Positions 12,948-13,865 of a stretch of DNA of 64,000 nucleotides are shown piece by piece. The stretch is from positions 1-64,000 of the forward strand of contig DASSIZ010000077.1 of assembly GCA_035691485.1 (NCBI GenBank), in the 5' to 3' direction. The notes beneath the pieces are model-generated. The model worked only from the letters and a program-made list of their open reading frames with translations. It had not been told where the DNA came from and searched no databases. This DNA is from Terriglobales bacterium (GTDB taxonomy: Bacteria > Acidobacteriota > Terriglobia > Terriglobales > Acidobacteriaceae). Every line of letters begins with the position of its first letter. Position 1 is the first letter of the stretch. The translations under genes were made by a program, and so were the position numbers.

Positions 12948-13004
12948 CGGTTGCGGGCAACACGAGGAGAGCATAGGATTTCAAACTCTCGGAAAGGAGT
13001 TCCC

Positions 13005-13865
13005 ATGCATAAAGATCCGTCACTGGGACTCAACCGCCGCAGCTGGCTCAAGCTTGGCATTTCTGCCGCGGCCGCCGCGTCCGCATCAACCCTTCTGCTG
13101 CAAGCGCAAGCTGGGCCCGAAAGCTGCGCGCCCCCCATCCCGCAAGATCACGCTGTATCCAACGGGGGCTTGTGCCCGTTTCCCATCCCGTGGCTCGACA
13201 AGAATGGCAATCACAACCAGATGCCGAAGGATAATGTCGAGCTCTCCAACATTTTTCACTTTAACGGCAAACTGGCGCGCTGTGCCGGCTTCAAGGGAAT
13301 GGGCACCGACAACCAGGGCAACCGCCTCGCCTGGGGCAATCCGACTACGGATTACAGCTACATGGCCGGTGAGTACTGGGCCGCGCGCAAAGCTCAGCAA
13401 GGCATCTTCACCCATACTTGACTCACCGTCTTCAAGGGACCGGCGGTCCCTGCCAACCAGATCCACGATTTCCATCCGCCCATCTCACCGGAAGGTCTTT
13501 ACTGGGTCACTCCCGTTCCTGCCAGCGGCCTCGTGTTCAGTGCCGACGGAAAAGTCGCCACCCTGCAGATGAACAATGTTGCCGTCATTGACCAGCCCAA
13601 ATGGCCCGCCATGGACGCGGAAACTACGCCCGCATTCATGGACTTTAAGCTCGTTTTCAAGCAGCTTGACGAGACTGTGACCTTCGACAATCCCCAGCAG
13701 CAGTACCACTTCGAAGGACACCGGGCAAGCGCGCAACTGGAAGCCACCATCCGCGTGCCGTCGATCAATTTCACATTCAAGACCGACCCGCTGGAATCGT
13801 CGAAGTGTGATTTCGCGGTGATGGGCACCGAGGTCAACGGTAAGTACTACCCGGCGAAAGGATGA
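13005..13865 (+). CDS. Tat-exported protein of unknown function with an in-frame UGA at codon 139 (candidate selenoprotein or nonsense mutant)
   Basis: One continuous reading frame of 286 codons runs from ATG 13005 to the stop at 13865, interrupted only by TGA at 13419-13421. The frame between the TGA and the next possible start (13533) has the same codon style and sensible protein (LTVFKGPAVPANQ, HDFHPPISPEGLYW), so the two halves belong to one gene. The N terminus has a twin-arginine signal (NRRSWLKLG, residues 10-18) followed by an alanine-rich hydrophobic stretch, so the protein is probably folded before export. Cysteines occur at 41, 57 and 93 and near the C terminus. I do not recognise the family. 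UGA could be read as selenocysteine, or be a recent mutation (TGG to TGA), or a sequencing error. A ribosome-binding site (GGAAAGGAG) precedes the ATG. It converges with the amidohydrolase gene. Confidence 0.7.
13435..13451 (+). promoter_or_regulatory. Stem-loop just downstream of the in-frame UGA (bacterial SECIS candidate)
   Basis: Seven perfect base pairs (AGGGACC with GGTCCCT) close a three-base loop GGC. The loop begins 20 bases after the UGA codon and its first two bases are G. As I recall the bacterial SECIS model, it asks for a short hairpin in the reading frame with a G among the first two loop bases and a UGA-to-loop distance of roughly 16 to 37 bases. The match is suggestive, but GC-rich DNA makes such hairpins by chance. 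Confidence 0.4.

Follow-up and report, generated by a model that had tools for sequence, protein, structure and literature searches.

The window, that is, the whole stretch of 64,000 nucleotides of a Terriglobales contig that was analysed, carries on its forward strand a gene (Table 1) separated by 57 bases from the M17 aminopeptidase gene preceding it and facing an amidohydrolase gene in convergent orientation. The initial annotation had described it as a single frame of 286 codons interrupted by one TGA at codon 139, and the translation bears this out: no other in-frame TGA is present before the terminator, which is a second, real UGA at 13863-13865. The occurrence of UGA both within the frame and at the end of the same gene argues against a genome-wide recoding of this codon.

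Table 1. Features of the putative selenoprotein locus (coordinates refer to the window).
Feature	Position	Strand	Remarks
Predicted selenoprotein gene	13005..13865	+	286 codons including putative Sec139 (UGA); one frame, homologues align over full length
Candidate ribosome-binding site, AGGAG	12995..12999	+	5 bases upstream of the ATG; by sequence
Putative twin-arginine (Tat)-type N-terminal signal (LNRRSWLKLG and hydrophobic stretch)	13005..13118	+	by eye and by homology for the window protein
UGA read as Sec, codon 139, context THT-U-LTVF	13419..13421	+	TGA in 25 of 25 distinct homologues
bSECIS-type hairpin, AGGGACC[GGC]GGTCCCT	13435..13451	+	position conserved, covariation, within bSECIS constraints, raised synonymous conservation
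Apical loop of the bSECIS-type hairpin	13442-13444	+	loop begins 20 nt after the UGA
His, codon 154	13464..13466	+	only His invariant across all three clades (alignment of 25; residue counts)

Homologues of the gene were collected with patterns and profiles independent of the residue at the TGA site. Six were present among 60 relatives; each carries a single in-frame TGA, and its aligned position is the same in all. In 84,980 species genomes, scanned with conserved peptides lying away from this site, 19 loci were detected, every one having TGA there, and three further loci came from profile searches of the phylum. After the removal of duplicates the set comprised 25 distinct loci falling into three clades, all of them taken from assemblies, mostly metagenome-assembled genomes (MAGs). 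The initial annotation had left the reading of codon 139 to the homologues, with Cys or further UGA on one side and Trp on the other. The answer is uniform, as TGA occupies this column in all 25, and Cys, Trp or any other sense codon in none. Clade A (HTULTVFKGP and similar motifs; n=18) includes single MAGs labelled Verrucomicrobia, Betaproteobacteria and Nitrospirae as well as two labelled Syntrophaceae, clade B (FAFIULDSL) has five members and clade C (FALIUIDLF) two, with the identity to the window protein dropping to about 24-29% among the three clades (lowest 24%). In one clade C copy (L066, G289:C36), the N-terminal stretch of the profile match contains an additional in-frame TAG, possibly because the match was extended wrongly upstream or because the gene is damaged. 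When about 1,050 more genomes from three other phyla were searched with profiles, the centre genomes alone were recovered, once more with TGA, and neither plasmid records (searched with tblastn) nor viral contigs yielded relatives. Members of the family thus occur sporadically, at low frequency among soil Acidobacteriota and in a few other bacteria.

Comparison of the window gene with its nearest relative revealed 14, 15 and 65 differences at codon positions 1, 2 and 3, respectively, upstream of the UGA (138 codons), and 16, 17 and 59 downstream of it (147 codons). This concentration of substitutions at third positions, seen in comparisons of the window gene with its relatives, indicates that both halves are translated in this frame and, judging from the aligned sequences, purifying selection is acting on either side of the UGA. 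A TGG-to-TGA point mutation, a sequencing error or a pseudogene, which a single genome alone could not have ruled out, can practically be discarded, as the identical TGA is conserved in 25 distinct loci across several assemblies, genera and phyla and both gene halves are under such selection. It is scarcely more credible that the locus encodes two separate proteins, the second starting past the UGA, e.g., at the GTG at 13533. An ORF of 110 amino acids can indeed be drawn there, but conservation runs unbroken through the UGA, residues 135-147 that span it being among the most conserved of the protein in the alignment of 25, and a start at this GTG would forfeit the conserved residues 140-176, including the invariant His154 and Trp167. 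The substitution patterns, with both sides of the TGA protein-coding, agree with the initial view of one protein rather than two.

Downstream of the UGA lies a hairpin whose geometry is exactly as first described, with 7 base pairs, a GGC loop, distances of 13 bases from the UGA to the stem and 20 to the loop, and G as the first loop base. The published model of bacterial SECIS elements (bSECIS) specifies a loop of 3-9 nt, a stem of 4-16 bp, G in the first two loop positions, a distance of 16-37 nt from the UGA and an energy of at most -7.5 kcal/mol (PMC13188914); the window hairpin, at -10.7 kcal/mol, lies within these constraints, and all 25 family members pass the model. In its loose form the model is also passed by 7.4% of the 1697 TGA triplets found on both strands of the window, and in a strict form (stem of at least 6, 3-nt loop G[G/T]N) by 0.18% (3) of them. 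A hairpin in a single sequence is therefore not decisive against chance, whereas its conservation in 25 of 25 members is. In clade A, 93.3% of the cells are paired, compared with 34-55% when the partners are slid, and at two pairs both partners are replaced (A-U by G-C in 7 rows, C-G by A-U in 5). The clade A covariation score was unreached by any shuffle, a count that is not a probability and is inflated by related rows. Hairpins of clades B and C are wholly unlike in sequence, with spacings of 17-26. Additionally, conservation at fourfold-degenerate third positions amounts to 0.58 in the hairpin vs 0.36 elsewhere in the gene, a difference reached by none of 20,000 random draws.

The genome from which the window derives encodes the complete machinery for selenocysteine synthesis and insertion that the initial annotation had named for checking: selA (547.8 bits), selB (373.6 bits), selD (361.1 bits) and a tRNA-Sec (selC) with the anticodon tca (UCA) all score over the curated cut-offs. 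Its selD (L033 1501-2526; G000:C13:72551-73507, minus strand) itself contains an in-frame TGA in the catalytic loop, AAG-U-ASKL, so that this genome holds at least two selenoprotein genes. A selB match over the cut-off was found in 22 of the 25 carrier genomes vs 40 of 54 non-carrying relatives; as selB is common in non-carriers, the co-occurrence is consistent with selenocysteine insertion but constitutes weak, non-discriminating evidence. In the three carriers with no selB match over the cut-off (G001, G449 and G459), incomplete assemblies or loss of the gene may be the cause.

With TGA conserved throughout, bSECIS-type hairpins in every member and the full set of sel genes, the selenocysteine reading of the initial annotation gains firm support, and the UGA at codon 139 is almost certainly decoded as selenocysteine. 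SelB and tRNA-Sec would perform this step, directed by the hairpin at 13435-13451, and the UGA at 13863 would terminate translation. A selenium-free alternative is a conserved stop codon subject to programmed read-through by tRNA-Trp or another near-cognate tRNA, so that a shorter and a longer product are made. In favour of such a scheme, UGA leaks more than the other stop codons do, and the upstream part alone (an ORF of 156 amino acids) would give a secreted fragment. We nevertheless consider it very improbable, given that a SECIS-type hairpin with the published spacing and G in the first two loop positions accompanies the UGA in each of the 25 genes, that the same genome combines the Sec machinery with a second UGA-containing selenoprotein, SelD, and that Trp occurs in no homologue.

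Searches for a known family to which this selenoprotein might belong gave consistently negative results. Among Pfam models, searched with the 25 members up to E 10, only those of Tat signals matched; NCBIfam release 20 (June 2026), searched up to E 1 or 10, yielded only Tat signals and a chance-level match to NF038083 (E 0.14). None of the 119 selenoprotein families of the 2026 inventory (PMC13188914) matches by name, motif or model, the comparison covering name and motif only for those families without Pfam or NCBIfam models. A PDB sequence search returned chance matches only, and nothing relevant was found in the literature on selenoproteins with Tat signals, in Acidobacteriota, or associated with haloperoxidases. 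The family shares with known bSECIS selenoproteins the in-frame UGA, the hairpin 16-37 nt downstream, G in the first two loop positions and the SelA/B/C/D machinery (PMC13188914), and differs from them in matching no listed family. Taken jointly, the sequence evidence makes it very probable that 13005-13865 encodes a selenoprotein and that this protein is a member of a previously undescribed family.

No Cys was found at the Sec position, either in the 19 loci from the 84,980 species genomes or in the profile searches of four phyla. This is the only point at which the family departs from what was expected of a bacterial selenoprotein, for which Cys homologues are customary, though they do not define one. 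It is rather likely that the family is strictly Sec-only, a provisional conclusion resting on the collections covered. Glycine reductase selenoprotein A (GrdA), formerly thought to be without Cys homologues, was later found to have some, and such homologues now seem to exist for every known selenoprotein (PMC12013277). In the collections covered here, the family is an apparent exception to this rule. It resembles GrdA in that the latter was long regarded as the sole family without Cys homologues, but the two are unrelated, as PF04723 is not matched in Pfam.

The N terminus of the protein suggests export by the twin-arginine (Tat) route. Arg11 is nearly invariant across the 25 homologues; the TAT_signal model (PF10518) matches 7 of 25 members, the window protein itself not being among them, and TIGR01409 matches 4 of the 7 members of clades B and C. 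AlphaFold2, supplied with 25 sequences, returned a domain that is beta almost throughout and spans about residues 84 to 281 (pLDDT 74.9 overall, about 90 in the core), and the fold is predicted to be an antiparallel beta-barrel; the model of a clade B protein was too poor for use (pLDDT 47). In structure comparisons the clade A model resembled 8-stranded barrels at a level near background (Foldseek E of 0.027 at best; highest Z of 9.4, to a porin barrel), and none of the folds of known function stood clear of this barrel background. Lipocalin/AttH-like and other 8-stranded barrels show a similar arrangement of the predicted barrel, with Z of about 6-9 (7.2 for AttH), but share only 4-9% identity, and their Z values lie near background for barrels. 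A thioredoxin fold with a UxxC/CxxU-type motif was considered and rejected, since the model is almost all beta and no invariant Cys occurs near Sec139. When all Cys and His positions are compared, Sec139 and His154 alone are common to the 25 members, whereas Cys41, Cys57 and Cys93 are confined to part or all of clade A, which leaves no conserved partner Cys. Judged by this conservation pattern, His154 is a probable active-site partner of Sec139.

The gene neighbourhoods differ among the clades. Conserved neighbours across clade A are limited to the aminopeptidase (pepA) linkage of the window gene, which recurs in one relative (G003), and to flanks that the two Syntrophaceae copies have in common; an M17 aminopeptidase and an amidohydrolase as neighbours indicate nothing about oxidants from the context of the window gene. 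Two clade A members belonging to different phyla have genes for bicupin proteins with Tat-like N termini nearby (L040 6721-7974 and L048 7708-8967), which may be a coincidence. One Syntrophaceae copy is followed downstream by genes for a Fur-family regulator and a KatG-like heme peroxidase (L050 4576-7321). Each of the five clade B genes has, no more than about 3 kb away, a gene resembling the vanadium haloperoxidase that adjoins L053; these neighbours are located at L053 2043-3563, L052 5739-7232, L015 1-1206, L072 3616-4626 and L054 4884-6108. Three of these five are confirmed by Pfam (DUF6851 and VCPO_2nd), the contig of L059 gives a sub-threshold PAP2 match only, and the L054 gene shows only weak similarity (25-33%). 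No haloperoxidase-like genes were found near clades A or C. The haloperoxidase-like, Fur-family and heme-peroxidase neighbours would point to oxidant chemistry outside the cytoplasm.

On this basis, we envisage a protein exported already folded via the Tat pathway, consisting of one antiparallel beta-barrel, some 200 residues long, whose active site contains Sec139 and the invariant His154. It would act as an extracytoplasmic selenol enzyme without a conserved resolving Cys, most likely engaged in the turnover of peroxide- or halogen-derived oxidants with the help of an external reductant. Because this role is deduced from the vanadium-haloperoxidase-like genes adjoining the clade B members, an oxidant-handling function of the family can be proposed only tentatively. 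A comparably serious possibility, short of an even chance, is that the protein is a true selenoprotein in which Sec, instead of reducing oxidants, serves metal binding or a non-redox chemistry, e.g., on a cyclase or hydratase scaffold of lipocalin-like type. The lack of a conserved resolving Cys and of a thioredoxin fold would suit such an activity, as would the AttH-like lyases, pericyclases and kievitone hydratase that appear among the weak barrel matches. Against it, characterised selenoproteins are mostly redox enzymes, and clade B is linked to haloperoxidase-like genes. As a tentative proposal, the family may represent a never-Cys exported beta-barrel enzyme with a strict need for selenium, one clade of which is functionally coupled to extracytoplasmic vanadium haloperoxidases.

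Standard methods of finding selenoproteins depend on Cys homologues. An all-UGA family without a Cys relative is precisely what such methods filter out, which suggests that selenoproteomes are undercounted, and in routine annotation genes of this kind are expected to appear as truncated hypothetical proteins. With this family, one could examine why selenium should ever be indispensable, here on a presumably extracytoplasmic scaffold other than thioredoxin.
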